A stretch of DNA of 40,029 bases from Burkholderiales bacterium (lineage in GTDB: Bacteria > Pseudomonadota > Gammaproteobacteria > Burkholderiales > SG8-39), in assembly GCA_014860355.1 (NCBI GenBank), contig JACZJV010000158.1:1-40029 (forward strand), given 5' to 3'. Below, in pieces: positions 1,411-39,777 of the stretch; position 1 is the first letter of the stretch, and each line of letters begins with the position of its first letter. Under the pieces are notes generated by a model, which worked only from the letters and a program-made list of their open reading frames with translations, made no database searches and was not told the origin of the DNA. The position numbers and the translations under genes were made by a program.

Positions 1411-4232
1411 GCGTGCAATTCTTTAGCGGGTTTGCTTCGCCCGTAACCCTGGGCTCCGGCGCCCTGATCGTTGCGGGCGTAGGCGCCGGTGGGATCGGGG
1501 GCGACGGCGGATGCAATGGAAATTTGGGCCCCTGTCTCGGACTTGCCGGCAGCGATGGCGCAGACGGAATCCCGTTTGCGCCGGGTGAACCGCCGAATGT
1601 GCTCGTGTCGGCCGGCGGCAGTTTCGTCAATAGCGCCGGATCCAGCGTACTCGACGTGGGCATTGCGGGAAGCTGGCTGATCTATTCCGGCGAGACGAAT
1701 CCGGGCAATTTCGCCGCGCAGCGCGGCGGACTTGTCTACGATTTCAAGCAATACAACACCAGCTACGGCGGCACTGTTCTAGGCACGGGCGATGGCTTCA
1801 TCTACAGCCTGGCCCCGGTCCTGACGCCTACCTTGTCCGGCAATTTCACCAAGACCTATGACGGCAATACGACTGCCAGTGTCTCCGGCGCCACACTCAG
1901 TGCCAGCGGAGTCAGCGGCGGTCTGATCGACGGCGATACTTCGGTCGTACTGGGCGGACCGACCTCGGCGACTTTCGACACCAAGAGTGCGGGCACGGGC
2001 AAGACCGTCACCGCCACTGGACTGTCGTTCATCAGCGCCAGCGAGGGTGCAATACCGGTATATGGTTACGTATTGCCGGCTTCGGTTACTGCGATCGGTG
2101 CCATCGATCAGGCCAGCCTGACCGTCGCGGCTGTGACGGCCGCGAACAAAGTGTATGACGGTACGACGCTGGCAACAGTGAGCGGCGGTACGTTCTCTGG
2201 CTTGATCGCGGGAGACGATGTCAGCGTTGGCACCGCCAGCGGCAGCTTCGCGGACAAGAATGTGGGTGTGGCCAAAACTGTCACCGTTAATGGCATTACA
2301 TTGACGGGCGCAGACGCAGGCAATTACCTGCTAACTGGTACCACGTCGAGCACGACCGCCGACATCACCCAGCGCCCGCTTTCCACCTGGATCGGTGGAA
2401 CGGCAGGGAACTGGTCGGTCGCGTCGAACTGGGATGCGATCCCCGATCTCTCGAACGTACTGGCGGTGACTGTGCCTGCGGGCACGACGGTAACCTACGA
2501 TGCCGGGATCGCCAACATCGCATCACTGGACACCGGCGGACTGAGCATCATAGGCGGCACCCTGAACATCGCCAACAGCCTCACGGTGAGTTCGAGCTAC
2601 AGCCATACGGGCGGCACGCTCGGCGCCTTTGGCGCCGGGTCCACTGCCGACATCACCCAGGCGAGCGGCAACCTGAGCCTGCCGGGGATCACGGTGGCGA
2701 GCCTCAGCCTCAATGCGCCTGCGGGGGAGATCACGCAAGTCGGTCGGATCGCCGTGCTGACGCTCAATACCCAGTCGCAGGGTGCCACGACGCTCAACAA
2801 CCCGGACAACCAGATCTCCGGCCGCGTCGACATGAAATCGGGCGGGCCGCTGATCCTGTGGGGATCGGGTGACCTGAACCTGGGCGCCATCGACGCCGGC
2901 ACCAGCGCGGCCGAGATCAAGGCGGGCGGCGCCATACTGCAGGCGCCGGGGACCGACAGCGGCATCAACCTCATCGCCGGATCGGCCGATCTTGAGAGCG
3001 TATTCGGCGGTGCCTCGGGCGGCCTCGCCATCAGCGCCAACACCCAGGTGACGGGCGCGCTCGTCGCCAGCGTCGGTGCCGAAGCGGACTTCGGCGGCAT
3101 TCGCATCCAGAACACCGGCGCGCAACCTTCGAGCGTGACGCTCACCGACAATGCGCTTGCGGGCGCAAGCGTCAGTTTCCTCAATACCGGGAACATCGAC
3201 AGCACGTCCGGTATTAGCCTGACGACCCTCACGGGCGGCGATCTCGCGCTGCTCTCGAACGGCAACATCACTTGGGACGGCGGCAGCCTAGCCACGCCAA
3301 CGGGCAGCGTGCAGATCAGCGCCGACGGCAGCCTCGGCGTGACCGGCGCCTTGACTTCGCCCGTGGATCTTGCGCTGTCCTCGGCCATCTCGATCGATGT
3401 CAGCGGCAGCGTGATTACCCAGGGTACGGGCACGGTGGCGCTTGTTGCGCCGAGCGTAAGCATCAGCGGCTCGGTCGACTCGGCCGACGATGTCGGCGTC
3501 GTCGCGGACAGCGTCAGTCTTGCGTCCGGATCGAACACCAGCGCGACCCACGACGTGATACTCGCGGCTGCAGACATTACGGCCACGAGCGCGACCGTTG
3601 CCGCGGACCACGACATCTCGGCTGCGGTGACGGGCGACCTGCGCCTGAACAGCTCCGGTTTTACCGCAGGCAACGACATCTTTATCAACCTGCTCGGAAC
3701 GAGCTCGACGCTCTATCTCAATGATGTGAGCGGGCTGGAGGAAGCGTCGTTCCTGTGGGCGCAGGCGCCGAGTACGATTTTCCTTGCTTATGCTGCGCGC
3801 GCCTCGGGCGGACTGGTGGTCGACGGTGTTCAGGTGGATCCGTTCACGTATGTCACCACTGTGGGCGGCAGCGGACTGTTCTACGGTCCGGGGAAACTTC
3901 CGGCGGTTCCCGGTGCCGGCCTCGAACTGGCCTACGCGGACGGCTTGCCCCCGGTCGACGGAACCACGGTGGATCCGACGGTCATCAGCGCGGTTATCGC
4001 GGCCGTGAACGCCACCACCACATCGACCGTGGAACGGGCCGGCGCCTTGCCGGGGACGTTCGACACGGACTTTGGAACCCTGGGCAGTCTTGGCGGATCG
4101 GACGACTCGATAGGCGGCAGCGAAGGCAGCTTTGGCGGGGACGAAGAAGACGAGAACCAGACCGACGCAGGCACGGGCCTGAAGAAAAAGGCGGACAAGC
4201 CGACCACGAAGAAGCTCTCCACATGCAGCTAA
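3..4232 (+). CDS. Giant glycine-rich YDG/MBG-repeat surface protein, 3' part (5' end outside window)
   Basis: The frame is open to the left edge (Gly-rich codons precede the first possible TTG at 30), so the gene starts upstream and at least 1409 codons are visible. Regions in order: about 470 residues of glycine-rich tandem modules; a linker; two YDG/MBG-type domains near 1848-2050 and 2118-2370, each opening with a K-x-YDG-x-T signature (TKTYDGNTT and NKVYDGTTL); then about 600 residues of Ser/Thr/Gly/Ala-rich sequence with short alternating hydrophobic segments, as in beta-helical adhesins. The tail is acidic Gly/Ser/Asp/Glu, then a Lys-rich stretch ending in Cys-Ser. In known families this architecture belongs to filamentous-haemagglutinin-like exoproteins of two-partner secretion (TpsA). 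The N-terminal secretion domain and any TpsB partner are not visible. No autotransporter barrel is seen at the C-terminus. A secreted FecR-domain gene follows by 14 bases, probably in one operon. The adhesin role is inferred. Confidence 0.85.
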
Positions 4233-11425: not shown

Positions 11426-12931
11426 TTGGAAAAGTCAGTGGCTAGCCGACACGACGAAGTCCTTATCACGCGTGGCGCTCCAGGCAATGAGGCCCGCACG
11501 ATTCAGCGTCGCGCCAAGGCGGGCGAGCTTGCCAGAATCGCAGAGGGCGTCTACTTGGCCGAGCGCGATCCGGAAGCCCAAGCGGCAATCGTTCGCCGCA
11601 ACTGGAGCCGCATTCTAGCCGCGCTAGTACCCGGCGCGGTCATATCGCATCGCAGCGCCTACCACGGTGGCCTGTCAGCGGACGGCAGCATTTATCTGAG
11701 TCACCCAAGCAACTACAACCGCAAGATCGAACTTCCTGGCGTCCGGGCAATTCTGGTGAAGGGATCAGGCCCGTTGCCAGGCGATTCTCCATTTGGTAAC
11801 GAGCAGCTCTACTTCGCATCGCGCCCACGGCAGCTTCTCGAAAATCTCTCGCCCGAGCGTGGCGCCCATGGAAAATCCGCCGGCGCGAAAGCCGTCGAGG
11901 AACGATTGGTGTCGATTCTCAACGCCGGCGGCGAAGACGAACTAATCAAGCTTCGCGATACCGCACGCGAGCTAGGCAAATCCATGGCTCTTCAGAGTGA
12001 GTTCGAGAAGCTCGACAGGCTGATAGGCGCGCTCCTCGCAACGCATACAGCAGGCGTGCTGAAAACCAAAGAGGGAAAACTCGTCGCCAAAGGCACCCCC
12101 GTGGATACCGAGCGCATGGCGCGGTTCGAGATTCTTGCTGCAAAGCTTCGGGTTGAGCCGCTCCCGCATCGTTCAGCAATCGCGGTAAGCGATCCGGCGA
12201 GATCGAATTTTGCATTTCTGGAATCCTACTTTTCCAACTTTGTCGAAGGCACCGAATTTGCCATCGAAGAGGCACGGGACATTGCGCTTAATGGACGCAT
12301 TGTCGAGCAGCGTCCGAAGGACTCGCACGACATACTGGGCGTCTTCACGCTCGCGGTTCAATCGCCCTGGCGCGACACCGTGCCACCGTTTGGGGCCGAC
12401 TTTCCCGCGGAATTAGCCAAGCGTCATGCCGTGATGATGGAGAAGCGCCCCGAATGTACCCCCGGTCACTTCAAAATTGAGCCCAATCGGGCAGGCGGCA
12501 CGTGGTTTGTAGCTCCACAGTTTGTTCGCGGCACGCTGATCGAGGGATCGAGCCTGGCCAGGAGCGTACCGGAAGGCCTGCCGCGCGCGATCTATTACGC
12601 GTTTCTCATATCCGAAGTTCATCCATTCAGCGATGGAAACGGTCGCATTTCAAGAATCGTGACGAATGCCGAACTGTCGCGCACCGGCGATGCACGTATC
12701 ATCATCCCAACGCTATTTCATGAAGAATATGTAGATTGTCAGCGTCAGCTAACGCACCAGAACGATCCTGCTGGTTTCATTCACGCCCTCGCTCTGATGC
12801 AGCGCTGGACCATCGCTTTTGATTTTTCAAACGTCGACGCCTTAATCGAAGCAATCAAGGCGACGAACGCTCTGGAGCATTCGAGAGAGCAATTCAAGTT
12901 AGCGATGCCTGACAATTCTTCCCTAGGTTGA
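11426..12931 (+). CDS. Fic-domain protein with AbiEi-like N-terminal region
   Basis: 501 residues. The Fic core motif HPFSDGNGR is complete at 399-407 (catalytic His399), so transfer of AMP or another nucleotide moiety to a target protein is expected. The inhibitory motif S-x-x-x-E-G (SNFVEG, 270-275) lies about 125 residues upstream in the same chain, as in class II Fic proteins that carry their own inhibitory helix. Residues 10-140 (TIQRRAKAGELARIAEGVYL, then VISHRSAYHGG) resemble the winged-helix AbiEi-type antitoxin N-terminus found in type IV systems. Thus a regulator-like domain, a linker and a self-inhibited Fic domain are joined in one polypeptide. Start: TTG 11426 has AGAGG six bases upstream; GTG 11438 is the alternative. 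No separate antitoxin gene is adjacent. Neighbours are toxin-antitoxin remnants, suggesting a mobile or defence island. Target unknown. Confidence 0.88.
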   Translation: MEKSVASRHDEVLITRGAPGNEARTIQRRAKAGELARIAEGVYLAERDPEAQAAIVRRNWSRILAALVPGAVISHRSAYHGGLSADGSIYLSHPSNYNRKIELPGVRAILVKGSGPLPGDSPFGNEQLYFASRPRQLLENLSPERGAHGKSAGAKAVEERLVSILNAGGEDELIKLRDTARELGKSMALQSEFEKLDRLIGALLATHTAGVLKTKEGKLVAKGTPVDTERMARFEILAAKLRVEPLPHRSAIAVSDPARSNFAFLESYFSNFVEGTEFAIEEARDIALNGRIVEQRPKDSHDILGVFTLAVQSPWRDTVPPFGADFPAELAKRHAVMMEKRPECTPGHFKIEPNRAGGTWFVAPQFVRGTLIEGSSLARSVPEGLPRAIYYAFLISEVHPFSDGNGRISRIVTNAELSRTGDARIIIPTLFHEEYVDCQRQLTHQNDPAGFIHALALMQRWTIAFDFSNVDALIEAIKATNALEHSREQFKLAMPDNSSLG

Positions 12932-16244: not shown

Positions 16245-16388
16245 GGGGAATAACCCCCGTTTGCATCCTTCTGGCACCTTAACTTGCGCGCCGCCCGCAA
16301 TCGGATCCGACGACCAGCGCCAATCCAGGACCGGTTGGTGCGCCGGATTCAACTGGGGGATTACCCAGAATTGGCGGGGAATTTCCCC
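16245..16388. promoter_or_regulatory. Three related palindromes, putative enhancer-binding sites
   Basis: Three copies of a GGGG-AT-rich-CCCC element: GGGGAATAACCCC (16245-16257), GGGGGATTACCC (16355-16366) and GGGGAATTTCCCC (16376-16388). The last two start 21 bases apart, two helical turns, and lie about 100-120 bases upstream of a sigma-54 promoter. Position, symmetry and phasing fit upstream activating sequences for a dimeric enhancer-binding protein. The protein is not identified in the window. Confidence 0.55.
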
Positions 16389-16473
16389 AACAAACGCGGG
16401 CACCGCATCTTTTTCGTTTGCATACGGCGCAAACTTGTTTAGCGAAGTCAGCAGCTTACCGAAAGCGTTGAAT

Positions 16474-16489
16474 TGGCACGAAATTTGCA
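16474..16489 (+). promoter_or_regulatory. Sigma-54 (-24/-12) promoter
   Basis: TGGCACG, four bases (AAAT), then TTGCA: an essentially perfect match to the known sigma-54 consensus with correct spacing. It lies 57 bases before the ATG of the HD-domain gene at 16547, predicting a start near 16500. Confidence 0.85.
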
Positions 16490-16546: not shown

Positions 16547-17476
16547 ATGAACGCGGCAAGCAACGAACTCGACGTCGCGAAGACGGTGAAGACCACGGAC
16601 GCGGCAGCGGTCGAAGCCGAGGTGAATCTGATATTCCTCGACCTCTATCCGGACGCGAGCACCGACGCGCTCAAGCTCGCTTTCCACGACGCCATGTCCC
16701 TGTATCGGGGCGAGATTGCCGGCGTCCGCGCCTGCGACACGGCTTACCACGATATCCAGCACACGCTGGACGTGACGCTCACCATGGCGCGGCTGATGGA
16801 CGGCTGCGAGCGCAGCCGCCTGTCCAGGGAACTGATCACCGAGCGCGATTTCCGCCTCGGCGTGATCACTGCGCTGTTTCACGACATCGGCTACCTGCGG
16901 CGCGACGACGACGCGCCTCGGGTTGTCAACGGCGCCGAATTCACCAAGATCCATGTATCGCGCGGCGCGGAGTTCCTGCGCGAATATCTTCCGCTGCTGG
17001 GCATGTCTGACATGGCGGAGATCGCCGCCTCCCTGATCCACTTCACCGGATTCGAGAAGCCGATTGCATCGATCAGCGTGCCCGGGCAGGTCTACAGGGT
17101 GCTCGGCAACCTGCTCGGAACCGCCGACCTCATCGCCCAGATGGCAGACCGCTGCTATCTGGAAAAATGCCGAGACCGGCTCTATCCCGAATTCGTCGCC
17201 GGTGGGCTGGCAAGACAGCGCCAGCCCAGTGGCGAGGATAAAGTAGTGTTCGAATCGGGAGAGGATCTGGTGCGCAAGACTCCCGCGTTCTATGCGGGTA
17301 CCAAGCGCCGGCTGCAGGAGGAATTGGGCGGTGCCTACCGCTATGCCGAAACGCATTTCCGCGGGCAGAACCTCTACCTCGAGGAGCTGCACAAGAATAT
17401 TCGATTTGCGCAGGCGCTTGCGAGCGCTCCGGACATGTCGGCATTGCGCCGCCTTCCGCCCGGCACGGTCAATTGA
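16547..17476 (+). CDS. HD-domain metal-dependent phosphohydrolase
   Basis: 309 residues; ATG 16547 has GAGGAGGCGGG upstream. The HD superfamily signature is spread as expected: His68 and His72 in YHDIQHTLDV, the His112-Asp113 doublet in FHDIGYL, a further His in KIHVSRGAEFL, one in SLIHFTGF, and the closing Asp in GTADLIAQMAD. These should bind one or two metals and hydrolyse a phosphate ester; the substrate cannot be read from sequence. There is no HD-GYP hallmark, no receiver domain and no membrane segment, so a soluble cytoplasmic enzyme is likely. A sigma-54 promoter with three upstream palindromes controls it, unlike most nucleotide-metabolism HD enzymes. It is followed by tatA-tatB after 237 bases, possibly the same transcript. 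Confidence 0.85.
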   Translation: MNAASNELDVAKTVKTTDAAAVEAEVNLIFLDLYPDASTDALKLAFHDAMSLYRGEIAGVRACDTAYHDIQHTLDVTLTMARLMDGCERSRLSRELITERDFRLGVITALFHDIGYLRRDDDAPRVVNGAEFTKIHVSRGAEFLREYLPLLGMSDMAEIAASLIHFTGFEKPIASISVPGQVYRVLGNLLGTADLIAQMADRCYLEKCRDRLYPEFVAGGLARQRQPSGEDKVVFESGEDLVRKTPAFYAGTKRRLQEELGGAYRYAETHFRGQNLYLEELHKNIRFAQALASAPDMSALRRLPPGTVN

Positions 17477-17713: not shown

Positions 17714-17956
17714 ATGGGTTCATTCAGTATCTGGCACTGGCTGATCGTGCTCGCGATAATCATGCTGGTATTCGGCACCAAGAAGCTGCGCACCTTCGGC
17801 GCAGACCTGGGCGGGGCGGTGCAGGGATTCAAACAGGGCGTGAAAGAGGCTTCCTCCGATGAGATCGACGATGCCGCCGGCGCAGCGTCCACCGAAAACG
17901 GCATGCTTATCGAGGGCGTGGTCACCAGGAAGACCAAGGCCGCGGCTACGCGCTAG
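17714..17956 (+). CDS. tatA: Twin-arginine translocase subunit TatA
   Basis: 80 residues; ATG 17714 follows AAGGAGCAGGAAA. The N-terminal membrane helix ([18 protein letters not shown]), the FG hinge with basic KKLR and the amphipathic helix ([18 protein letters not shown]) are diagnostic of TatA, which forms the pore-like oligomer for export of folded proteins across the inner membrane. The C-terminal tail is short and Ala/Lys rich. tatB follows after nine bases, but no tatC exists in the window. Confidence 0.95.
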
Positions 17957-17965
17957 GGATCGCAG

Positions 17966-18547
17966 GTGTTCGACATCGGCTTTTCCGAAATGATGCTTGT
18001 GGGCATCGTAGCGCTCGTGGTGATCGGGCCGGAGCGCATGCCCGGGGTTGCGCGCACGGCCGGGGCGCTGTTTGGCCGGGCGCAGCGCTATGTCGGTGAA
18101 CTGAAGGCCGACATCCAGAAGCAGGTGGACCTGGAGGAGCTGAAAAACATCAAGTCCACTTTTGATGACGCGGCAAGATCGTTCGAGCAGTCGGTAATCC
18201 AGGCGCAAGAGCAGCTCGATGCCAGCGCTCGCTCGTTGAACCCGGGCGTTGCCGCGCAGGCGCCAACACCGGTCGATCCTTCCTCTATTGCGCAATCCGG
18301 CGACATAGGCGAGGCCAGCGCGGCATTGCCCTGCGAGGACGCCGAGGAGCTGGTACAGATTCCGGTAACCGTCAGCCTGATGCACAGCGAAGTGGATCCG
18401 GAAGAACTCCGGCGCATAGAAGCCACTTTTTACCAGGCACCCGAGCCGGCAGCCGCCGCCGACGAAACACAAGACACTACTGTGCAAATGGATTTCTGGC
18501 TGGGCGCCACGCCAGTCCACGGTCCGTCCGCCGCGCCCGGGGCGTGA
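17966..18547 (+). CDS. tatB: Twin-arginine translocase subunit TatB
   Basis: 193 residues from GTG 17966. The start MFDIGFSEMMLVGIVALVVI, followed by GPERMP (GPERLP-type signature) and an amphipathic helix containing FGRAQRYV, identifies TatB, which with TatC forms the twin-arginine signal receptor. A long coiled, charged stretch (ADIQKQVDLEELKNIKSTFD) follows, then a variable acidic tail with no recognised domain. The gene sits directly after tatA; in the usual order tatC would follow, but instead there are 243 bases of spacer and a secretion ATPase. The TatC used must be encoded elsewhere. Confidence 0.93.
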   Translation: MFDIGFSEMMLVGIVALVVIGPERMPGVARTAGALFGRAQRYVGELKADIQKQVDLEELKNIKSTFDDAARSFEQSVIQAQEQLDASARSLNPGVAAQAPTPVDPSSIAQSGDIGEASAALPCEDAEELVQIPVTVSLMHSEVDPEELRRIEATFYQAPEPAAAADETQDTTVQMDFWLGATPVHGPSAAPGA

Positions 18548-18790: not shown

Positions 18791-18919
18791 ATGGAATTAA
18801 TCCGGGTTTGCGATCGACTCGACACCGCAATTCAATTACGCGAAACCCATCAAGCGCTTTGTACGGCACGCACGGCAGGGCAGGCGCGCTCCTGCATGTA
18901 CGGGGCCGGGTTGAAATGA
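18791..18919 (+). CDS. Possible 42-residue leader ORF coupled to the GspE-like gene
   Basis: ATG 18791 has a good ribosome site (AGGAAAGG, about ten bases before). It begins MELIRVCDRLDTAIQLRETH and ends CMYGAGLK; its TGA overlaps the ATG of the next gene as ATGA (18916-18919). No domain is recognised. The ribosome site and the stop-start overlap suggest translation that feeds the downstream ATPase gene, whose own start lacks a clear site. Confidence 0.5.
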   Translation: MELIRVCDRLDTAIQLRETHQALCTARTAGQARSCMYGAGLK

Positions 18920-21174
18920 GCGCGGTTCCGCAACTCAAAATCGTCCGCGGCGCAGCGGCGGAAGAGGAGTTTCGCTGGCCCGCTCCGTCGTACTTCGAGT
19001 TCGTGCGCGAGCAGGATCGCCTCGACTGGGCCGATTGCCTGCTCACCTTGAGGGACGGCACCAGGACGAGCGGACGCGCACACAGCTTCGTGCCGGGTGA
19101 AGCGCTGCTGGAGTTTCAACCGGACGGGGCCGGCAAATCCCGCAGCGTGGCCTTTTCCAGCCTGCTGAAGCTGCAGCTGGGGCGGTCCGTACCGCTGCGG
19201 CGCGAAACAGCGCCAACCGCGTCAACGGCGCAGACCGAGGCCGCCAAACCGACCCTGGCGGAGACGCAGCCGTTTCGCATCGAACTCGCGAACGGCGAGA
19301 TATTCGACGGCGTGACCCTGGGTTACGTCAGCGCGCTATGCGGGCTGTTCCTGTATTTGCCGCAGGACGACGGCGGAGTCCTGCGCTGCTTTGTGCCGGC
19401 GAACGCGGCGCAGAACTGCAGCATCGACGCACCCATCGGGCAGATCCTGATCAATCAGAGGGCGGCGTCGCCCGAAGCGGTGGGCGCCGCGCTCAACCTG
19501 CAGGCGATCATGCGCACGAAAAAATTCGAACAGTTCCTCGCGCAGAGCGTGACTGCCGACGAGGAGAGCGGCGGGGCTGCGGCGCCCGAGGCACAGAACC
19601 GTCGCGTACTGTCCGTCTGCGACACGCAATCCATGCGCTGGCCCACAGGAAATCCGGAAGAGACCGCCGCCCTGGAGCAGCTGCGCCGGATGACCCAGGG
19701 ACGAAGGGCCTCGGATGTCGTCGCGGCAGAAGACGAAAGCGAGAATTCATTTATCCGACGCTACTCCAGTACCACGAATAGCGGGAGGCTGGCCGCGTCG
19801 GCGCCGCGAAACCGCCGCGAAGTCGGCGAAGTGCAGGTTGACAAGTCAGCGGCTATCACCGATCGGGCTGGCGTGCAGGAACTGGTCACGCGCCTGGCCG
19901 CCGAGACCGGCGACCGCGACGTAACCGAGCAGCATGCCGCCAAGAGCAGCAGCGCCCTGGTGCTGCTGGTCAACAGGATCATCCTCGACGCGGTCGAGCA
20001 CAAAGCGTCCGACATCCATATCGAATCGAATCTGGCACCCAAGACGACACGCGTTCGCTTTCGCCGCGACGGGGTACTCGTGAACTATCTCGAACTGCCG
20101 TCGCAGTTCCGCAACGCACTGGTCTCCAGAATCAAGATCATGAGCAACCTCGATATTACCGAGCGGCGCAAGCCGCAGGACGGAAAGATCGATTTCAGCC
20201 GGTTTGGCCCGGCCAAGGTCGAGCTGCGAATTGCGACCGTTCCCACCACAGGCAACCTGGAAGACGTGGTCATGCGCCTGCTCTCGGCGAACAACCCGGT
20301 CGGGCTGGACGAACTGGGGATGGAAGAGCATATGCTGGAGGCGATCAGCGGCCTCATATCCAAGCCGCACGGCCTGTTCCTCGTATGCGGCCCGACTGGT
20401 TCGGGCAAGACCACCACATTGCATTCATTGCTCGGGTTTCTGAATACCCTGGAGCGCAAGATCTGGACCGCGGAAGACCCGATCGAAATCACCCAGGCCG
20501 GCCTGCGCCAGGTTCAGGTCAATCCGAAAATCGGCTGGACTTTTGCCGCCGCGATGCGCAGCTTCATGCGCGCAGACCCCGATGTCATCATGGTCGGCGA
20601 GATGCGTGACGGCGAAACGGCCAAGATCGGCATCGAGGCGTCGCTGACCGGGCACCTGGTGCTGTCGACCTTGCATACCAACAGCGCGGCGGAGAGCATC
20701 GTACGCCTGCTCGATCTGGGCATGGACCCGTTCAACTTCTCCGACGCACTGCTGGGCGTGCTGTCGCAGCGCCTGGCCAAGCGCCTGTGCCCTGAATGCA
20801 AAAGCGCCTACGCGCCGACGCCGGCCGAACTCGACACGCTGTTGCGCGAATACTGCAACAGTGCTTCAATCGATACGCGCACGATGATGCAGAAATGGCT
20901 GGAGCGCCATGGCAACGCGGACGGAACGATCACGCTGTATCGTGCGCAGGGCTGCACGCATTGCGACAACACCGGATACCGGGGCAGGATCGGCGTGCAC
21001 GAACTGCTGGTGGCCGACGCGACGACGAAGCAGCTGATTCAGTCGCGCGCGCCCCTGTCCGACGTAAGAAACGCGGCCGCCGTGCTCGGAATGTCCACCC
21101 TCAGGCAGGACGGCATCGAGAAGATTCTGCAGGGCCTCACCGATATCAGGCAGATAAACGCGGTCTGCAGCTGA
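18916..21174 (+). CDS. GspE/PilB-family secretion ATPase with unusual N-terminal region
   Basis: 752 residues from ATG 18916, much longer than typical GspE (about 500-570). The C-terminal two thirds is a complete type II secretion/type IV pilus assembly ATPase: KASDIHIESN, RRKPQDGKI, Walker A GPTGSGKTT at about 492, the Asp box AEDPIEI, Walker B region DPDVIMVGEMRDGE, the His box LSTLHTN, and a zinc-binding tetracysteine pair (CPEC ... CTHC). The first 250 residues differ from the usual GspE N-domain: two similar stretches (DWADCLLTLRDGTRTSGRAH and FRIELANGEIFDGVTLGYVS) look like repeated small beta domains, perhaps PilZ-like, followed by ILINQRAASPEAVGAAL, related to the MshE/GspE N-terminal helix motif. 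It is separated from other secretion genes and lies between tatB and a hemerythrin. A second, canonical GspE occurs at 36148. Role: cytoplasmic motor of a secretion or pilus machine; which one is unknown. Confidence 0.9.
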   Translation: MSAVPQLKIVRGAAAEEEFRWPAPSYFEFVREQDRLDWADCLLTLRDGTRTSGRAHSFVPGEALLEFQPDGAGKSRSVAFSSLLKLQLGRSVPLRRETAPTASTAQTEAAKPTLAETQPFRIELANGEIFDGVTLGYVSALCGLFLYLPQDDGGVLRCFVPANAAQNCSIDAPIGQILINQRAASPEAVGAALNLQAIMRTKKFEQFLAQSVTADEESGGAAAPEAQNRRVLSVCDTQSMRWPTGNPEETAALEQLRRMTQGRRASDVVAAEDESENSFIRRYSSTTNSGRLAASAPRNRREVGEVQVDKSAAITDRAGVQELVTRLAAETGDRDVTEQHAAKSSSALVLLVNRIILDAVEHKASDIHIESNLAPKTTRVRFRRDGVLVNYLELPSQFRNALVSRIKIMSNLDITERRKPQDGKIDFSRFGPAKVELRIATVPTTGNLEDVVMRLLSANNPVGLDELGMEEHMLEAISGLISKPHGLFLVCGPTGSGKTTTLHSLLGFLNTLERKIWTAEDPIEITQAGLRQVQVNPKIGWTFAAAMRSFMRADPDVIMVGEMRDGETAKIGIEASLTGHLVLSTLHTNSAAESIVRLLDLGMDPFNFSDALLGVLSQRLAKRLCPECKSAYAPTPAELDTLLREYCNSASIDTRTMMQKWLERHGNADGTITLYRAQGCTHCDNTGYRGRIGVHELLVADATTKQLIQSRAPLSDVRNAAAVLGMSTLRQDGIEKILQGLTDIRQINAVCS

Positions 21175-21981: not shown

Positions 21982-23412
21982 CTACAGGGCTCTGCGCATG
22001 CTCATCGGCGGCAGGTTCAGCGATTCGCGATATTTTGCGATGGTGCGGCGGGCCACCACGATGCCCTGCTCGCCGAGTATCTTCGATATCTTGGCGTCCG
22101 AAAGCGGCTTCTTGCAGTTTTCGGCACTGACTAGCTGCTTCATCAGGGCGCGGATCGCCGTGGCCGAGCAGGCGCCGCCGGCTTCGGTGGAGACATGGCT
22201 GCCGAAAAAATACTTCAGCTCCAGAATCCCGCGCGGCGTGGTCATGAATTTCTGCGTGGTCACGCGCGACACCGTGGACTCGTGCAGGTCCAGGGTCTGG
22301 GCGATTTCGCGCAGCACCAGCGGGCGCATCGCCACATCACCGTGGTCGAAGAAATGGCGCTGCCGTTCGACGATCGCCTGCGCCACGCGCAGTATGGTCT
22401 CGAAACGCTGCTGCACGCTCTTGATCAGCCAGCGCGCCTCCTGCAGCTGGACCGACATCTGGGCGCAGGGCGGGTGCACCTTGCTCTGCAGGATCTGCGC
22501 GTACATGTGATTGATGCGCAGCCTGGGCATGGCGTCGGGGTTGAGCGTGGCGATCCAGCTGTCTTTCGATTTGCTGACAATGATGTCGGGCACGATGTAG
22601 CGCGTATCGGAGGCGCCGTAGGCGGAGCCCGGATGGGGGTTCAGGCTCTTTATCAGCTGCTGTGCCCGGCGCAGGCTCTCGTCGTCGCAACGCAATTGCC
22701 GTTTGAGGCGCACGAAGTCGCGCGCGGCGAGCGTATCCAGGTGGTCCTGCACGATATCGATGGCGAGCGCGCGCAGCGGTGTTGCGGCCGGCAATGCGCT
22801 CAACTGCAACGCAAGGCATTCGGCGAGATTGCGCGCGCCCACGCCGACGGGGTCGAAATTCTGCAGATGCCTGAGGCCGATCTGCAGTTCCTCCAGTTCG
22901 ATTTCCAGTTCCGCCGGCAGCATGTCGGCGATTTCCTCCAGGCTTTGCGACAGGTAGCCGTTTTCGTCCAGGGCCGCAATCAGGGTGTGGACCACGTTCT
23001 TGTCGCGCTCTGGCAGGCGGGTCATCCCCAGCTGCTCCATCAGATGCTCGTACAGGCTGCAATTTTCCGCGGCCTGCTGCGGATACTCCGACTCGTCGCC
23101 GTCGTCGTAGCGGGCGCCGGCGGGAGCGTCGTCCACAAACCAGTCGAAATCGGTCTCGTTGCCGTCGCTCGATTCAGCAGGCGGCGCCTCTGCGCCCGTC
23201 GCGGCCGGTTCGTCGTGCGTGGCGCCGTTCAGCGCTACCGGCAATGTTTCCAGGTCCGGATCTTCGCGCTCGAGCAGCGGATTTTCGGTCATCAGCGATT
23301 CCAGCTCCTGGTTCAGTTCCAGGGTGGACAACTGCAGCAGGCGGATGGACTGTTGCAGTTGCGGCGTCAGGCTCAGCTGTTGCGCCAGTTTGACGTTCAG
23401 GACTTGTCTCAT
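21982..23412 (-). CDS. rpoN: RNA polymerase sigma-54 factor
   Basis: 476 residues. Region I (Gln/Leu-rich, SLTPQLQQSIRLLQLSTLEL) interacts with enhancer-binding proteins; an acidic, low-similarity region II follows (60-115). The core-binding domain includes LQNFDPVGVGARNLAECLAL, the HTH reads LREIAQTLDLHESTVSRVT, and the RpoN box ARRTIAKYRE (454-463) that reads the -24 element is intact. All domains are complete, so it should be functional. The usual proteobacterial context (lptA-lptB upstream, hpf/ptsN downstream) is absent; the gene stands alone, so it may be a second, dedicated sigma-54. A consensus sigma-54 promoter lies 5.5 kb away at 16474. The start at 23412 is preceded only by a weak ribosome site. 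Confidence 0.97.
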   Translation of the reverse strand: MRQVLNVKLAQQLSLTPQLQQSIRLLQLSTLELNQELESLMTENPLLEREDPDLETLPVALNGATHDEPAATGAEAPPAESSDGNETDFDWFVDDAPAGARYDDGDESEYPQQAAENCSLYEHLMEQLGMTRLPERDKNVVHTLIAALDENGYLSQSLEEIADMLPAELEIELEELQIGLRHLQNFDPVGVGARNLAECLALQLSALPAATPLRALAIDIVQDHLDTLAARDFVRLKRQLRCDDESLRRAQQLIKSLNPHPGSAYGASDTRYIVPDIIVSKSKDSWIATLNPDAMPRLRINHMYAQILQSKVHPPCAQMSVQLQEARWLIKSVQQRFETILRVAQAIVERQRHFFDHGDVAMRPLVLREIAQTLDLHESTVSRVTTQKFMTTPRGILELKYFFGSHVSTEAGGACSATAIRALMKQLVSAENCKKPLSDAKISKILGEQGIVVARRTIAKYRESLNLPPMSMRRAL

Positions 23413-24009
23413 GATCGACCGGGAGCGTCGCTGGACGCGTCTCCCCGAGTAAGCCGCCGGGCCAAACTATCGCTGTTCGCGTTGTGCATGAATCGCCTTT
23501 TGTTCGCCATATAGGGTGTTCGCCATTGTTGGTTTTCGTGAGCGTAACCAGCGTTGTCAGATCGCCGACCCTTGACACCGGCCGCAGCAGGCCGCGTCGA
23601 TCCGTCCCGCTGCATAGCCGCCTGCAGCAAGTTGGAGCATTCTCGGTCACGATGCGCGGCGAAACCATAGGGCCTTACCCGATTTAATACGTAGTGGTTC
23701 CGATCAGCGCTGCCTTCGCGATGCCCCATGGGACAGGTATGGTTGTCGCAGCTGGGGGGGCAGGAGGCGCAATGCACGGGGCATATGCCCCTCGATCGGC
23801 ACCGCTGCGCCAGCCACACGAACCTGCCTGATGCGCTTTGCCATTGAGAATCGGCATCTTGTCCGCGGCATGACTCTGGCACGGGTTGTGCATACATATC
23901 AGGCAGGAGATGGTCTGCGGATCATCTGAATTGCTGTCCGTGAGAGGTTTCCGTTCCCGCGCGAGCTGCCGGAAATCTCGGCGGATGCGGCTGAATTGGA
24001 AAGAAGCAA
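23413..24009. other. Gene-free region upstream of rpoN
   Basis: About 600 bases with no supported gene; open frames here are composition artefacts. At 23877-23892 TGGCACG-N4-GTGCA resembles a sigma-54 promoter with one mismatch in the -12 element, pointing to the small gene at 24010. Confidence 0.4.
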
Positions 24010-24195
24010 ATGAGTAAAGGACGCACAAGGATGTGGCTGCACCAGATATTGCTCGACCCGGATTTCATCGACAGATGGAGCGACAGGAAGGATGTGCGCA
24101 AGACGTTTCGCGCCGTGAGAAAGCGGCGCTTGCGCGAGGCGGAACTGCAAATCCGCCGCGACCACGCGCTGAAGAAAAAGTTCGGAATCAAATGA
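24010..24195 (+). CDS. Small basic protein, hypothetical
   Basis: 61 residues, ATG 24010 preceded by GGAAAGAAG. Begins MSKGRTRMWLHQILLDPDFI, then RWSDRKDVRKTFRAVRKRRL and a Lys/Arg-rich helical end. Very basic and probably all-helical; a nucleic-acid or ribosome binding role is possible but only a guess. No family recognised. A sigma-54-like element with an imperfect -12 lies about 120 bases upstream. Confidence 0.5.
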   Translation: MSKGRTRMWLHQILLDPDFIDRWSDRKDVRKTFRAVRKRRLREAELQIRRDHALKKKFGIK

Positions 24196-24468
24196 CGGAC
24201 ATCGGTTGCGGCGGCCGGACCGGGTCGGACGCGGGCTTTGCAGCGCCGCCGTGCCGATAGGGGATCGCCGCGCGCACGGCGACCCCGGGCACCACGGGCG
24301 CGCGCCCTCAGGCAGGCGCCGGCCAGCTCGATGCGGGCGCGGCTTGTTTCCACCAGGCGCAAGGCATACATCGACCAGCGGTGCCCTCGGGGGCGGCATG
24401 CGCACCCCGTCGTCTGGCGCCTGTAAATGGTTTCGGGCGACGAGTTGTCCAATGTTCAGGAGTCAAGG

Positions 24469-25113
24469 ATGCAAAAGCTGCAGCGAATACTGATTGTCGA
24501 TGCGCACCTAACGCTCAGGGTCGGGATGCGCAGGCTGTTTTCCGATGATCCGGGCATCGAGGTGCTCGCCGAAGCCGACATGGGCCGCGGCGCAGTTCGT
24601 CTGACGCCGCATCTGCTGCTGATGGATAGAACCAGACCGGGAATGAACGGCAGCGACATCGCAGCGGTGGCGCGGCTCAAGCGGCGGTATCCGCGGGCGC
24701 GGCTGCTGATGATATTGCCGCAAAGACCCGAGGACTACATACACGCGTGCCTCGATGCGGGTGCCGATGGCTGCATCCGCAAGGACGCGGCGCTCGAGGA
24801 GCTGCGAGCGGCGATTCACGGCGTGCTGCAGGGCCAGGTCTACCTGGACCAGCGGTTTTTCCAGAAGGCGGCCGGCCGCGCATCGGGCGGCGGATCGCCC
24901 GGCGAGGGCAGGGCAAGCAAGGTATTGACGCCGCGCGAGCGCGAAGTGCTCAAGCTCGTGGCCGCGGGAAAAACGAGCAGGGACATAGCCGAAATACTCG
25001 ATCTCAGCGTGAAGACGGTCGGCAAGCATCGCACCAATCTTCTGTCCAAGCTCGATCTGCACAATGCCGCCGAACTGACGGCCTACGCAATGGCGCGCGG
25101 GCTGCAGCTCTAG
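24469..25113 (+). CDS. LuxR/NarL-family response regulator
   Basis: 214 residues from ATG 24469, which has CAGGAG eight bases upstream; an earlier in-frame ATG (24427) lacks a site. The receiver domain spans about 1-120: the phospho-acceptor Asp lies in LLLMDRTRPGMNG and the conserved Lys in CIRKDA. The acidic pair near residue 10 is reduced to VDAH instead of VDDH, so Mg binding and phosphorylation may be weaker. After a Gly-rich linker comes a LuxR HTH (LTPREREVLKLVAAGKTSRD, then LSVKTVGKHRTNLLSKL). It should bind DNA as a dimer. No histidine kinase gene is nearby, so it is an orphan as seen. Targets are unknown; surface/secretion genes follow downstream. Confidence 0.92.
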   Translation: MQKLQRILIVDAHLTLRVGMRRLFSDDPGIEVLAEADMGRGAVRLTPHLLLMDRTRPGMNGSDIAAVARLKRRYPRARLLMILPQRPEDYIHACLDAGADGCIRKDAALEELRAAIHGVLQGQVYLDQRFFQKAAGRASGGGSPGEGRASKVLTPREREVLKLVAAGKTSRDIAEILDLSVKTVGKHRTNLLSKLDLHNAAELTAYAMARGLQL

Positions 25114-28768: not shown

Positions 28769-29326
28769 TTAGCCGCGGCCGGCGCGCTTTGCGCCCGCGC
28801 CACCCGCGTGCGCCTGTGATGGCAGGGGGCGCCGCTGCGCTGTACCATTTTTCTGCGGCTCGTATCCCGTAAGCTGCTGCAGCTTTTCCCGCGCGCGCGA
28901 CAGCCGCGACATGACCGTGCCCGGCGGAATGCCGAGCGTCCTGGCGGCCTCCACATAGCTCATTTCCTCGACCGCGACGAGCATGAGCACATCGCGCTGT
29001 TCGGGCGCCAGGCATCGCATGGCCTGGTCCAGTTCGGCAAGCTCGATCCGGTCGAAATGTTCCGCGTTCCCCGTGGGGTCGGGCAGGCTGTCCGGATCGG
29101 GACCAGGCTCGAACCTGGGGCCGCGCAGTTGATTGAGAAATACATTGTGCATGACGGAGAACAGCCAGGCGCGCAGGTCGCTGCCGGGGCGCCACAGGTG
29201 GATCTTGTTGAGCGCGCGCTCGAGCGTGTCCTGCACCAGATCTTCAACGGCATGGTGGTCGCGCGTGAGTGCGCGCGCGTACCGGCGCAGTCGCGGAATG
29301 TGTTCGACAACCGGATTCGTTTTCAT
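28769..29326 (-). CDS. ECF-type RNA polymerase sigma factor
   Basis: 185 residues from ATG 29326 with AAGGA just upstream. Region 2 is seen in RYARALTRDHHAVEDLVQDT and DLRAWLFSVMHNVFLNQLR, and region 4 in LAPEQRDVLMLVAVEEMSYV plus the HTH TLGIPPGTVMSRLSRAREKL. A basic, Gly/Ala-rich tail of about 30 residues follows. No anti-sigma factor gene is adjacent on either side, which is unusual since most ECF factors are co-encoded with one. It is the last gene of the minus-strand block after the type I secretion genes (129-base gap), so it may be co-transcribed and regulate them or their substrate. Confidence 0.93.
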   Translation of the reverse strand: MKTNPVVEHIPRLRRYARALTRDHHAVEDLVQDTLERALNKIHLWRPGSDLRAWLFSVMHNVFLNQLRGPRFEPGPDPDSLPDPTGNAEHFDRIELAELDQAMRCLAPEQRDVLMLVAVEEMSYVEAARTLGIPPGTVMSRLSRAREKLQQLTGYEPQKNGTAQRRPLPSQAHAGGAGAKRAGRG

Positions 29327-29454: not shown

Positions 29455-30615
29455 TCAGCGCTCGCCCAGTGATTCGGCAAAGGTCTTGGTGATCGGTTTG
29501 GTCAGGTATCTCCAGACGGTGTTGCTTCCGGTCTTGATTTCCACTGAGGCAGTCATGCCCGGCTGGATTTCGATGCGTTTGGGGCTGTGCTGCGTGATCT
29601 TGCCCGCCTTGGTCTTGACCTGGACGCGGAAATACGGCGGTTCGTTCACGTTGCGGGTTTCGTCGCTCAGCGTATCTGCGCTGATATAGGTCACCGTGCC
29701 CTCGAGCGAGCCATAGATGGTGTAATCGTAGGCATCCAGCTTGATCGTCGCGGGGAGGCCGGGTTTCACGAACGCGATATCTGCGGGTTTGACCTTGGCC
29801 TCGATCACCAGATCGTCCTCGACCGGGACGATCTGCATGATTTCCTCCCCCGGCCGGGCGACGCCGCCGCGCGTGGTGATGCGGATGTTTCGCACCACCC
29901 CGTCCATGGGCGCAGTGATCACCGTATGCTCGAGCTGGTTCTTGCGCTGCGCCACGATCTGGTCCAGGCCGGCCAGATCTTCGAGCGCCTTGGACAGCTC
30001 GGTCTGCGCGTCCTGGCGGTACTTGTTGGTCCGGTTCGTGATCATGCCCTGGATTTCGGCCACCTGGCGCTGCAGCTTGAGCACTTCGGCCTTGCTGACG
30101 TCGCCCCTTTCCAGCAAGGGCAGATTGATGTCGAGTTCGGTCTTGACCAGATCCAGCGACCGTTGCAGCGACGCTATCTCTTCACGCAGCGAGGCCTGGC
30201 GCATGCGGAACAGCATTTCCTGATTGGCGCGTATGCGCGGATACGCATCGACTTCGGCCGGAAATTTGGGCTCGCCCCCGTAGAGCTCGGCGCTGAGGCG
30301 CGCCACGGCTGCCTTGAGCGCAGCCGACCTGGCCCGGCTTTCGAGGTAGGAGGTCTCGGTCTTGGCTTTCTCGAAGCGCACCAGGACCTGTCCTTCCTTC
30401 ACGAACGAACCTTCCTTGACCAGCAGGTCCTCGACGACGCCGCCGTCGAGTTCCTGGATCACCTGGTTGCGCGAACTGGCGATGACCTGCCCCGGGGCGC
30501 GGGTTATCTGGTCGAGTTCCGCCCAGGCGGACCAGGCAATGAAGCCGCCTATGGCGAGCGCGCTGGACAAGACCAGTATGCGTCCCGAGCGCGGAATATC
30601 GTCTTTCTTGTTCAT
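29455..30615 (-). CDS. Type I secretion membrane fusion protein (HlyD family, LapC-like)
   Basis: 386 residues. Short cytoplasmic N-terminus, one membrane helix (LVLSSALAIGGFIAWSAWAE, near 13-32), then a lipoyl/barrel half (APGQVIASSRNQVIQELDGG, VVEDLLVKEGSFVKEGQVLV), a long coiled-coil hairpin (about 95-235), and the second lipoyl half with the HlyD signature region (VITAPMDGVVRNIRITTRGG, PGEEIMQIVP), ending with a beta-barrel domain (KVKPADIAFVKPGLPATIKL). It links the ABC pump to the outer-membrane channel. It lies seven bases after the ABC gene. Closest in layout to adaptors of the large-adhesin type exporters. Confidence 0.94.
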   Translation of the reverse strand: MNKKDDIPRSGRILVLSSALAIGGFIAWSAWAELDQITRAPGQVIASSRNQVIQELDGGVVEDLLVKEGSFVKEGQVLVRFEKAKTETSYLESRARSAALKAAVARLSAELYGGEPKFPAEVDAYPRIRANQEMLFRMRQASLREEIASLQRSLDLVKTELDINLPLLERGDVSKAEVLKLQRQVAEIQGMITNRTNKYRQDAQTELSKALEDLAGLDQIVAQRKNQLEHTVITAPMDGVVRNIRITTRGGVARPGEEIMQIVPVEDDLVIEAKVKPADIAFVKPGLPATIKLDAYDYTIYGSLEGTVTYISADTLSDETRNVNEPPYFRVQVKTKAGKITQHSPKRIEIQPGMTASVEIKTGSNTVWRYLTKPITKTFAESLGER

Positions 30616-30622
30616 GAGTGTG

Positions 30623-32746
30623 TCAGGCGTACGCTGCTGCCACGCCTTCCTTGTACGCAGTGGGTGGCGAAACCGGCGGAGCGCCGGAAAGTTTGGCGAG
30701 GACCTGATCGCGCGGGCCGTCCATGACCACGTGTCCGCCCTGCATGACCAGCAGCCGGTCCACGATCGGGAGCAGGGCGCTCTTGTGCGTGGCCACCAGC
30801 AGGGTCGCGCCCGCCGATGCCTTCGCCTTGAGCGTGGCCACTATTCTGGCCTCGGCCGCGGCGTCCATGGAAGCGGTCGGTTCGTCCAGCAGCAGCACCG
30901 TCGGCGCGGCAAGCAGCATGCGCGTCATCGCGAGCAGTTGCTTCTGGCCGCCGGAAATGCCGCGACCGCCCTCGCTGATCGGCAGCGCCAGTCCTTTCGG
31001 GTGGTTGGAGATCAGGGCGATGAGTCCGGTTTCGCTCGCCGCCTGCAGCAGTGCTTCATCTCCGGGATCGGGCAGGCCCTGGAGCAGGTTGTCGCGCAGG
31101 CTGCCGCTGACCAGGCGTATGTCCTGGGGCAGATAGGCTATGTTCTCGCGCAGGAAGTGGGGCGAGATCAGTGCCATGTCGATGCCGCCGAGGAAGACCT
31201 TGCCCTGCACCGGGCGATACAGCCCGGAGGCAAGCTTCAACAGGGTGCTCTTGCCCGAGCCGATGGCGCCGACTATCCCGACCTTCTCGCCTGGTCTGAT
31301 TTCCAGCCGGTCCAGTTCGAGCGCCATCCCGGCCGTCATGCCGTAGCCGAACTGGGCCTGCTCGAAGCGGATGCCCCCGTCGGTCGCCCCCGGGGTCAGG
31401 GCCTGCGCCCGATCGTCGATCTCGTTGGGCAGCGCGATGAGCTTGTCCAGGCCCTGGATCGCCGCGCGCGCATGTTCCCACTGCACCATGAGCCCGGGCA
31501 GCTGCGCGATCGGCGACAGCGCCCGGCCGTTGATGATGGTGCAGGCGATGAGCGCGCCCATGGTCAGCTGGTTCTGGCTCACCAGATAGGCGCCCAGCGC
31601 CACCAGCCCGACGTAGCCGATCTGCTGCAGCGCCACCGTCATGTGCTGGGACAGCGAGGAATATTGCTTGATCTGGTAGTCGGATTCACCGGCCGCCTCC
31701 ACCAGCCGGCTCCAGCGCCCCTGCAGTTTCCACTCGGCGCTGTTGGCCTTGAACGATTCCGCGCCGTCGATCGACTCGACCAGCAGTCCCGCCTTGTAGT
31801 TGCTGTGCCCCTGGTTTTCCCGTGCATGCCGCGCTATCTGCCGCTGGAACATGAGCCCGGTGATCAGCGAAACCGGGAGCAGCAGGGCCGGGACCAGCGC
31901 CATCGAGCCGCCTATCATCGCTATGATCACGATGAAGAACAGTGCAAACGGGACGTCGGCGAGCATGAAAATCGAGGTCGCGCTCATGATCCCGCGCACC
32001 AGTTCGAAGCCCTTGATCTGCGCGGCGAGCGTGCCGACCGAACTCGGGCGGCATTCCATGCGTATGCCCAGCGCCCGTTCGAAAAACCACTCCGAGAGCT
32101 GCGCGTCGATGCGCGTTGCCGTTTTTTCGATCGCATGACTGCGCACGTGCTTGAGCAGCAGTTCCAGCACGATCGCGGCCACGACACCGGTCGAGAGCAC
32201 CCACAGCGTTTGGAAACCATGATTCGGGATGACCCGGTCATAGACCTGCATGCTGAATACCGATGCGGCAAGCGCGAGCATGCTGACCAGAACCGTGGCG
32301 AGCATGGCTTCGGCGAAAACGCCCTTGCGCTGCCATATCGCCTTTGCGATCAGCTGCGCTGCGCGGGGAACGCTCGCGCTGCCCTCGATTCTGGGCGGCA
32401 GGCAAACGCACTCGACGCCCTCGAGGTTCTGGATGCGGCCGTTGGCCCCGTTCGCGTTCTGCAGCAGCCAGCTGCCGTCGGCGTTTTGCGCCGCCACTAC
32501 GAACCAGCCCTGGTCGGAATGCCAGCCGATAAAGGGACAGTCTTTCTGCCTGGGCGCAGGCAGGTTCTGGGGCTCGCCCTCGAGCTTCGCCGCCTGCCAG
32601 GCCGCGCGCACCAGGCTCGCGGCTGTAGCGGCGCTATCGACCTGGGCCAGCGCATGGTCGATATCGGCCTGGCGCTCGCGCAGTACCGATTGCCCGGCGA
32701 GCCTCGCCGAGTGCATGATCACTGCCGACAGCTTGTGCAGCTTCAT
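30623..32746 (-). CDS. Type I secretion ABC transporter/ATPase (LapB-like)
   Basis: 707 residues. The N-terminal 130 residues form a C39-like domain without a catalytic Cys (so a substrate-docking, not cleaving, domain). A six-helix exporter membrane domain follows (from AMLATVLVSMLALAASVFSM), then a nucleotide-binding domain with Walker A GAIGSGKST (about 493-501), signature GISGGQKQ near 594 and Walker B TVLLLDEPTA, followed by the switch His in LLVATHKS. This matches exporters of unprocessed RTX/LapA-type adhesins. Start ATG 32746 overlaps the end of the upstream tolC-like gene by four bases (ATGA). No giant substrate gene is in this block; the substrate is unknown. Confidence 0.94.
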   Translation of the reverse strand: MKLHKLSAVIMHSARLAGQSVLRERQADIDHALAQVDSAATAASLVRAAWQAAKLEGEPQNLPAPRQKDCPFIGWHSDQGWFVVAAQNADGSWLLQNANGANGRIQNLEGVECVCLPPRIEGSASVPRAAQLIAKAIWQRKGVFAEAMLATVLVSMLALAASVFSMQVYDRVIPNHGFQTLWVLSTGVVAAIVLELLLKHVRSHAIEKTATRIDAQLSEWFFERALGIRMECRPSSVGTLAAQIKGFELVRGIMSATSIFMLADVPFALFFIVIIAMIGGSMALVPALLLPVSLITGLMFQRQIARHARENQGHSNYKAGLLVESIDGAESFKANSAEWKLQGRWSRLVEAAGESDYQIKQYSSLSQHMTVALQQIGYVGLVALGAYLVSQNQLTMGALIACTIINGRALSPIAQLPGLMVQWEHARAAIQGLDKLIALPNEIDDRAQALTPGATDGGIRFEQAQFGYGMTAGMALELDRLEIRPGEKVGIVGAIGSGKSTLLKLASGLYRPVQGKVFLGGIDMALISPHFLRENIAYLPQDIRLVSGSLRDNLLQGLPDPGDEALLQAASETGLIALISNHPKGLALPISEGGRGISGGQKQLLAMTRMLLAAPTVLLLDEPTASMDAAAEARIVATLKAKASAGATLLVATHKSALLPIVDRLLVMQGGHVVMDGPRDQVLAKLSGAPPVSPPTAYKEGVAAAYA

Positions 32747-39234: not shown

Positions 39235-39777
39235 ATGAAACAGTTGCAGGGCTTGCTCGGGTCCGGCGCCGCGAGCCTGGGCTGGCCGGGGACGGTGGGA
39301 TTGGGACTGCTCGTGGCTGTCGGCGGATTCTATGTTTCGACGCTGGCGCCGCAGCAGTTGCAGATCGAAGAGCTGCGCCAGGAACACGCGCACCTGCGCC
39401 AGCTGGCGAAGCAATCCGCTGATGACGCGCCCAAGGGCCCGGCGGAAAAGCTCGCGGCGTTCTATGCCTTTTTCCCGCCATCCGGGGAACTGCCCGACCT
39501 GCTGCAAAAGGTCTACGGCGCAGCCAAACGGCAGTCGCTGATCCTCGAGCACGGCGAGTACCGCGCGCTCAAGGACAGCGTCGACGGCCTGACGCGCTAT
39601 CAGTTCACGCTTCCGCTTCGGGGCACTTATCCGCAGATACGCAAGTTTGTCGACGAGGCCCTGGCCGAGGTTCCCGCGCTGTCCCTGGACAGCATTCAGT
39701 TCGAGCGGCGCAAGATCGGCGATGCGACGGTGGACGCCAAACTCAAGCTGGTGGTGTTTCTGGGGAGGAGTTCATGA
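39235..39777 (+). CDS. PilO/GspM-like inner-membrane assembly protein
   Basis: 180 residues from ATG 39235 (TGGAGACGCG upstream). One membrane helix (WPGTVGLGLLVAVGGFYVST, near 17-36), a coiled coil (LQIEELRQEHAHLRQLAKQS), then a ferredoxin-like domain (LPDLLQKVYGAAKRQSLILE, YQFTLPLRGTYPQIRKFVDE, VPALSLDSIQFERRKIG). The LRGTYPQIRKFVDEAL stretch is typical of PilO/GspM. It should dimerise with the PilN-like protein to form the periplasmic ring under the secretin. Its TGA overlaps the next ATG (ATGA). Confidence 0.75.
   Translation: MKQLQGLLGSGAASLGWPGTVGLGLLVAVGGFYVSTLAPQQLQIEELRQEHAHLRQLAKQSADDAPKGPAEKLAAFYAFFPPSGELPDLLQKVYGAAKRQSLILEHGEYRALKDSVDGLTRYQFTLPLRGTYPQIRKFVDEALAEVPALSLDSIQFERRKIGDATVDAKLKLVVFLGRSS

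Follow-up and report, generated by a model that had tools for sequence, protein, structure and literature searches.

The closest described systems are two-component systems that act with sigma-54. In Pseudomonas putida GB-1, the sigma-54-dependent regulator MnxR and the kinases MnxS1 and MnxS2 are needed for manganese oxidation by multicopper oxidases; mnxS1-mnxS2-mnxR form a putative operon with two kinases, and rpoN is needed for manganese oxidation in Pseudomonas sp. MS-1 (PMC11409713). Sigma-54 and IHF sites have been predicted for mnxG and mcoA, and the cited passages mention no activator site (PMC11930936). In the PEP-CTERM regulon, the kinase PrsK is joined to the NtrC-type regulator PrsR, and a shared motif, TTTACA, precedes the sigma-54 promoters of secreted targets with an average spacer of 62.8 nt (PMC1569441). 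No description of a GGGG-CCCC site of a sigma-54 activator has been found among the literature matches listed for open-licence papers. The sigma-54 regulon proposed here is unusual, and it could not be matched to a named one.

The window, meaning the whole stretch of 40,029 nucleotides that was analysed, is part of a Burkholderiales genome (G000; contig JACZJV010000158.1, here C15). A sequence-only reading had proposed that it holds a near-perfect TGGCACG-N4-TTGCA promoter preceded by three GGGG-CCCC palindromes, and all of these elements have been recovered (Table 1). TGGCACGAAATTTGCA is the only match to TGGCACN5TTGCA with zero mismatches in the window, and it carries the invariant GG and GC of the TGGCAC-N5-TTGC(A/T) consensus at the right spacing. 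Its counterpart in the congener G008 is CGGCACGAAAGTTGCG, in which GG and GC are retained and two other consensus letters are changed. The last two palindromes start 21 bp apart, as had been read; measured from the T of TGGCAC, they are centred about 113 and 91.5 bp upstream. GGGGGATTACCC is a putative second activator site, separated by two helical turns from the proximal palindrome. The proximal palindrome has the form GGGGGATATCCCC in G008, at equal promoter distance. The distal palindrome is conserved in G008 together with its flanks; it is possibly a distal activator site, or a site serving the divergent gene. With up to one mismatch, GGGGRWTWNCCCC has five strand-matches in the window, at three places; shuffled windows averaged 1.00, and none of 100 reached five. 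Two further candidates have been set aside: TGGCACCTTAACTTGC at 16273 was rejected as a second promoter, its spacing being off by one base and the element being absent from G008, and a weak palindrome-promoter pair at 13165 (8/10 sigma-54 letters) is taken as chance.

Table 1. Predicted promoter elements, palindromes and genes of the window
Feature	Position	Strand	Remark
Glycine-rich frame with YDG domains, large	3-4232	+	open at contig start
Fic/DOC-family protein	11426-12931	+	
Distal palindrome GGGGAATAACCCC	16245-16257	.	centred 222 bp before the -24 element
Second palindrome GGGGGATTACCC	16355-16366	.	G008 version GGGGATTACCC
Proximal palindrome GGGGAATTTCCCC	16376-16388	.	85 bp before promoter 16474
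Sigma-54 (-24/-12) promoter TGGCACGAAATTTGCA	16474-16489	+	0 mismatches to TGGCACN5TTGCA
HD-domain protein, first gene after promoter	16547-17476	+	Pfam HD 23.1 bits, cut-off 22
tatA	17714-17956	+	NCBIfam TatA 101.5 bits, cut-off 83
tatB	17966-18547	+	TIGR01410 67.4 bits, cut-off 56.5
gspE-like secretion ATPase	18808-21174	+	Pfam T2SSE; GspE equivalog 452 bits, below cut-off 630
Second rpoN copy	21982-23412	-	71% identical to the C22 copy
Palindrome GGGGCATATGCCCC of second promoter	23778-23791	.	G008 version GGGGCATTTGCCCC
Second sigma-54 promoter TGGCACGGGTTGTGCA	23877-23892	+	1 mismatch to TGGCACN5TTGCA; kept in G008
Frame for 61-aa protein behind second promoter	24010-24195	+	conserved in G008
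LuxR-type response regulator, after 61-aa frame	24427-25113		LuxR/receiver domains
ECF-type sigma factor	28769-29326	-	no GGGG/sigma-54 site at this copy
Type I secretion set, complete (HlyD, ABC, outer-membrane protein)	29455-33993	-	inside the type II cluster

The same reading named an HD gene followed by tatAB as the controlled genes, and all these genes are present behind the promoter. For the HD protein, no PDB relative has been found at E≤0.01. The genes HD, tatA, tatB and gspE are probably carried on one transcript, and their order is conserved in G008. Among the HD-gene homologue loci compared, 28 of 30 are without the promoter and the palindromes together, so sigma-54 control of the HD gene appears to be recent. 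GGGGTAACACCCC has been noticed about 390 bp before the HD homologues of two other genomes (L043 and L048), with no sigma-54 site nearby. An rpoN gene had also been placed in the locus; it is present, but as a second copy; the usual lptB-rpoN-ptsN setting belongs to the copy on C22. The second copy is embedded in the secretion cluster. The RpoN box ARRTIAKYRE is identical in both copies, and thus there is no sign of private promoter choice in the second one. At the second promoter of the window, the gap from GGGGCATATGCCCC to TGGCACGGGTTGTGCA is 85 bp. Relatives of the ECF-type sigma factor of the window lie directly behind a GGGG/sigma-54 promoter in G082 and G083. An Rfam scan of the window returned a single tRNA and no other match.

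Throughout the genome, the strict palindrome GGGGNWWWNCCCC has been found at ten places, compared with two for the reversed pattern. Three of the ten stand 84-85 bp before a sigma-54 site (85 bp at 16376 and on C40, 84 bp on C123), 16245 is the distal member of the array to which 16376 belongs, and for the other six no sigma-54 site follows in the next 200 bp. The motif by itself thus also occurs away from sigma-54 promoters, but its pairing with one at this spacing is far beyond what chance would give. The combined pattern of palindrome and sigma-54 site has five matches in the genome (C15, C40, C123, C187 and C41), and its reversed control has none; the match on C41 is taken as chance. Nine perfect TGGCACN5TTGCW sequences are present in the genome, most of them without such a palindrome upstream, so that the palindrome regulon is one among several.

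The spacing is nearly constant. At nearly all listed sites of four genomes the proximal centre lies 82-92.5 bp from the promoter, with one at 98 bp, and at several promoters a second palindrome follows 20.5-22.5 bp further out; two or three palindromes per promoter, spaced by about 21 bp, are frequent. Such tandem upstream sites at a fixed, phased distance are as expected of NtrC-type sites. Over 26 loci, 14 of 37 palindrome-promoter pairs fall into a peak at 80-119 bp upstream, and no palindrome is found at the mirrored downstream distance. Four promoters are kept in G008, namely the HD promoter, the second one of the window and those of the receiver gene and of a hemerythrin-like gene (on C186 here); their proximal palindromes are centred about 91 bp away. 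Among 98 family genomes, the strict pattern is restricted to G000, G008, G082 and G083, the control being zero in all; a single match on C253 of G082 looks like chance. A relaxed pattern, run over eleven genomes, found 19 distinct promoters against 1 control match in the four carriers and 3 against 7 in the seven others. An order-wide strict search of 399 genomes yielded 5 matches against 3 control matches, which indicates that the element is confined to particular lineages; the matches in G180 and G329 are taken as chance. The N5 spacer first proposed is not general, and GGGG-N6-CCCC or GGG-N7/8-CCC is the better description of the site family.

The genome encodes eleven strong enhancer-binding proteins, none of them in the window. 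The candidate regulator is an NtrC-type response regulator encoded on C123 together with a histidine kinase, and the two genes are convergent with a receiver gene that is itself putatively controlled by the palindrome. Its Response_reg (87.5 bits), Sigma54_activat (217.3 bits) and HTH_8 (41.9 bits) domains all score above the cut-off. Of the best 25 of 116 NCBIfam models, none passes its cut-off with this protein, the scores and cut-offs being 376/714 for AtoC (the best), 371/503 for PrsR (370.9 against 502.6 bits with model TIGR02915), 361/559 for NtrC and 317/529 for NifA.

A protein scan of named genomes, in which the best 80 of 122 relatives were followed, gave 18 orthologue loci with 58-95% identity, chosen by the regulator alone and blind to DNA motifs. 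In the stretch from -180 to -45, GGG-N7-CCC occurs at 13 of the 26 sigma-54 sites of these loci (expected 1.19, p=2e-11), half of the sites being without such a dyad. Near other enhancer-binding proteins the same dyad has been counted at 3/26 (expected 0.56) and 1/18 (expected 0.35) sites, and the slight excesses there amount to 3/26 at both N6 and N7 and 2/18 at N8. The proposal that the palindromes serve an enhancer-binding protein is strengthened by this enrichment near orthologues of one regulator, only slight near other such regulators, and by the 84-85 bp gap at three strict sites with a reversed control of zero. The reversed dyad is also raised at the orthologue loci (12/26, 10/26 and 10/26 at N6, N7 and N8), as tandem arrays would make it. 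A scan of the 18 loci with the strict GGGG-N5-CCCC gave no separation from the reversed dyad (15 against 13), which is obtained with the relaxed spacer only, and it has been superseded by the dyad counts and the learned motif. When motif-chosen loci are included, GGG-N7-CCC and GGG-N8-CCC come first among all dyads.

When a motif was learned from 32 upstream regions in other species, with the symmetry imposed and only the letters left to be fitted, it took the form TGGGGCANNTGCCCCA. In the held-out 40-kb window, it places 16244, 16375, 16354 and 23777 at ranks 2 to 5, respectively; four of the five top positions thereby fall within two 240-bp stretches, for which the chance is about 1e-7 if positions are independent. 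The regulator is present at an identity of at least 78% in all four strict-pattern genomes, where C96 of G083 is orthologue locus L158 and C97 of G082 is L169. Of the 60 relatives in which the protein was sought, G000 and G008 alone carry it at more than 51% identity, and a class-wide search at E≤1e-135 found it in 2 of 369 genomes. The observed sequence pattern, spacing, conservation and co-occurrence with the regulator argue that the TGGGG-N6-CCCCA palindromes are very probably upstream activating sites of the C123 NtrC-type regulator, which would switch on the sigma-54 genes behind them.

LuxR-type genes are present in the window, on C123 and near many orthologue loci, and the critical site of the LuxR-type protein VqmA is given as AGGGGGGATTTCCCCCCT (PMC8284805). 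A LuxR/NarL-type response regulator of the same cluster might accordingly bind the palindromes, with sigma-54 promoters near only by association. This is considered improbable, since the fixed position 80-119 bp upstream of -24/-12 sites is a requirement of an enhancer-binding protein, and since sites are found at L163, L125, L153 and L154, which have no LuxR-type relative within the stretches examined there.

In the phylogenetic tree, the orthologue clade of the C123 regulator (17 rows, support 100/99) is nested in a larger, 30-row group (96/87) that includes proteins of G050, G344, G425 and Candidatus Manganitrophus plasmids, its details being unsure and some branches long. In G050, G344 and G425, GGGG-CCCC sites accompany sigma-54 sites next to the regulator genes; at the regulator loci of G165 (a weak site only), G225 and G354 no clear GGGG-CCCC site has been found. 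Four Manganitrophus plasmid loci, three of them near-identical, have two or three palindromes about 20 bp apart, placed between a receiver gene and the kinase-regulator genes. Sigma-54-like sites (8/10 letters) face both ways in three of these loci, and in the fourth a single sigma-54-like site (9/10) faces the kinase. At the plasmid loci L269-L272, the kinase-regulator genes adjoin TMEM165/GDT1-family genes, and a second pair of kinase and sigma-54 regulator lies nearby.

That sites of this kind also occur in the wider group, in G050, G344, G425 and Manganitrophus, leaves some room for another of the eleven enhancer-binding proteins as their reader, for example the C186 paralogue, which is 48% identical to the C123 regulator, belongs to the wider supported group and has a similar recognition helix. 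This alternative is likewise judged improbable: its own gene (L128) has no usual palindrome-promoter pair nearby, only one weak pair at 106 bp, and within the family, to the extent tested, the spaced pattern goes together with the C123-type protein. Chance placement of G+C-rich palindromes near sigma-54-like sequence, without regulatory meaning, is scarcely credible, for although short G/C patterns are common in host DNA and the matches on C41 and on C253 of G082 are chance-like, the controls are near zero, the spacing is constant, the held-out ranking and the G008 conservation agree, and the arrays are also found in Manganitrophus DNA of 51-56% G+C.

The C123 regulator and its kinase can be connected with the window through gene order in relatives. 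At L161, one contig carries relatives of the window PilN and of the frame at 39235-39777, followed by pseudopilins, LuxR, a kinase and the kinase-regulator pair as on C123; at L167 the pair adjoins HlyD-ABC-OEP genes that are 61-74% identical to window 29455-33993. On this basis C15 and C123 are probably neighbours, and the gene order suggests that the C123 pair belongs to the type II secretion cluster of the window.

By position, the putative targets in this genome are HD-tatAB-gspE, a small protein, two hemerythrin-like proteins and a receiver protein, as well as a BON/EF-hand protein (centre at 98), probably a target of the C123 regulator, and a gene on C166. Tandem sites precede the gene of a CotA-like multicopper oxidase in G083, its product having a twin-arginine start by eye; the other putative targets there are an Ig/cadherin-repeat protein, an ECF sigma factor, a response regulator and a receiver. 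The putative targets in G082 comprise an ECF sigma factor, two receivers, a PKD-domain protein and a kinase-like protein. Multicopper oxidase genes are present at 5 of the 18 orthologue loci and at none of 62 control loci, and also in G037 and on C123 itself. The oxidases of L163 (Tat signal by Pfam) and G083 have a palindrome and sigma-54 site of their own; the L177 oxidase has palindromes with a poor promoter (8/10), and more distant palindromes, at 128-151 bp, are seen for the oxidases of L166 and L173 and for one of the two in L162. No palindrome is in range of the second L162 oxidase, the G037 oxidase or that of G000; motif control of the genome's own oxidase, which has a sigma-54 site, is unsupported. 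At L081, a multicopper oxidase cut by the contig end (2-1247, -) has, by eye, a twin-arginine start; a strong sigma-54 site stands at 1378, and no palindrome is in range.

Ig/cadherin-type secreted proteins of the 'GGFPAWYQD' family are encoded near the regulator at 6 of the 18 orthologue loci, and L163, L168, L170 and G083 each have one Ig/cadherin-type protein with a GGG-CCC/sigma-54 promoter. Secreted proteins with an N-terminal GGFPAWYQD-type sequence, several of them with Ig/cadherin repeats, have been noticed beside the regulator at L168, L170, L171, L172, L163, L165 and L122.

The mechanism proposed is most likely the ordinary one for NtrC-type regulators. A signal received by the histidine kinase would lead to phosphorylation of the C123 regulator, which would then bind the palindromes as dimers on one helix face, two turns apart, and oligomerise. 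Looping back over about 90 bp, it would open the sigma-54 closed complex at -24/-12 in an ATP-driven, rpoN-dependent step. Activation would extend to HD-tatAB-gspE, the small-protein gene and the genes of the two hemerythrin-like proteins, the receiver protein and, probably, the BON/EF-hand protein. The outcome would be a surface and secretion programme in which TatAB and type II secretion parts are made together with exported cargo, in relatives including multicopper oxidases and Ig/cadherin-repeat proteins. The copper enzymes would be exported by Tat, perhaps also through the type II system next to it.

Manganese or iron oxidation as the function is a lead only, drawn from the Manganitrophus relatives and the MnxR parallel. 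Stated in full, and tentatively, an as yet undescribed two-component sigma-54 system that has relatives among Betaproteobacteria, some Pseudomonas and Mn-oxidising Nitrospirota might read tandem TGGGG-N6-CCCCA sites and co-ordinate extracellular metal oxidation by producing Tat-dependent multicopper oxidases and large Ig-repeat surface proteins along with a dedicated TatAB, dedicated type II secretion and perhaps a private second RpoN; this is a possible but doubtful reading. If it is true, an activator site would be available for MnxR-like control, along with a sequence-only route to such regulons. Apart from it, the results describe a sigma-54 regulon without a named match by its DNA signature and name a candidate as its regulator; the regulon appears to tie Tat to type II secretion, and in relatives also to multicopper oxidases, in mostly uncultured environmental bacteria. 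Ramlibacter monticola, R. alkalitolerans, Pseudomonas jinjuensis and P. schmalbachii are named isolates that carry the regulator and make the regulon testable.

Compared with the known systems, the C123 regulator resembles NtrC, NifA and AtoC in its receiver, AAA+ sigma-54 activation and Fis-type DNA-binding domains, whereas it scores below all three model cut-offs. NtrC recognises a GCAC-N7-GTGC-like site, from which the GGGG-CCCC palindrome differs. The palindrome is similar to the GGGG...CCCC palindrome of the LuxR-type VqmA; however, VqmA is a quorum-sensing receptor, for which the cited passages give no link to a sigma-54 promoter (PMC8284805). With PrsK/PrsR, as described in the cited passages, the present system shares a kinase with an NtrC-type regulator, motif-preceded sigma-54 promoters and secreted targets, but the C123 regulator reaches 371 against the PrsR cut-off of 503, and the C123 kinase 67 against the PrsK cut-off of 300. 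MnxR, likened by its described function and not by sequence, is the nearest functional parallel. The putative mnxS1-mnxS2-mnxR operon has two kinases; one related kinase is located directly before the C123-type regulator at nearly all loci inspected, kinases of another type lying further off and a diverged second kinase being one that would be missed. MnxR is needed for manganese oxidation by multicopper oxidases, and multicopper oxidase genes stand beside the C123-type regulator at 5/18 orthologue loci against 0/62 controls.
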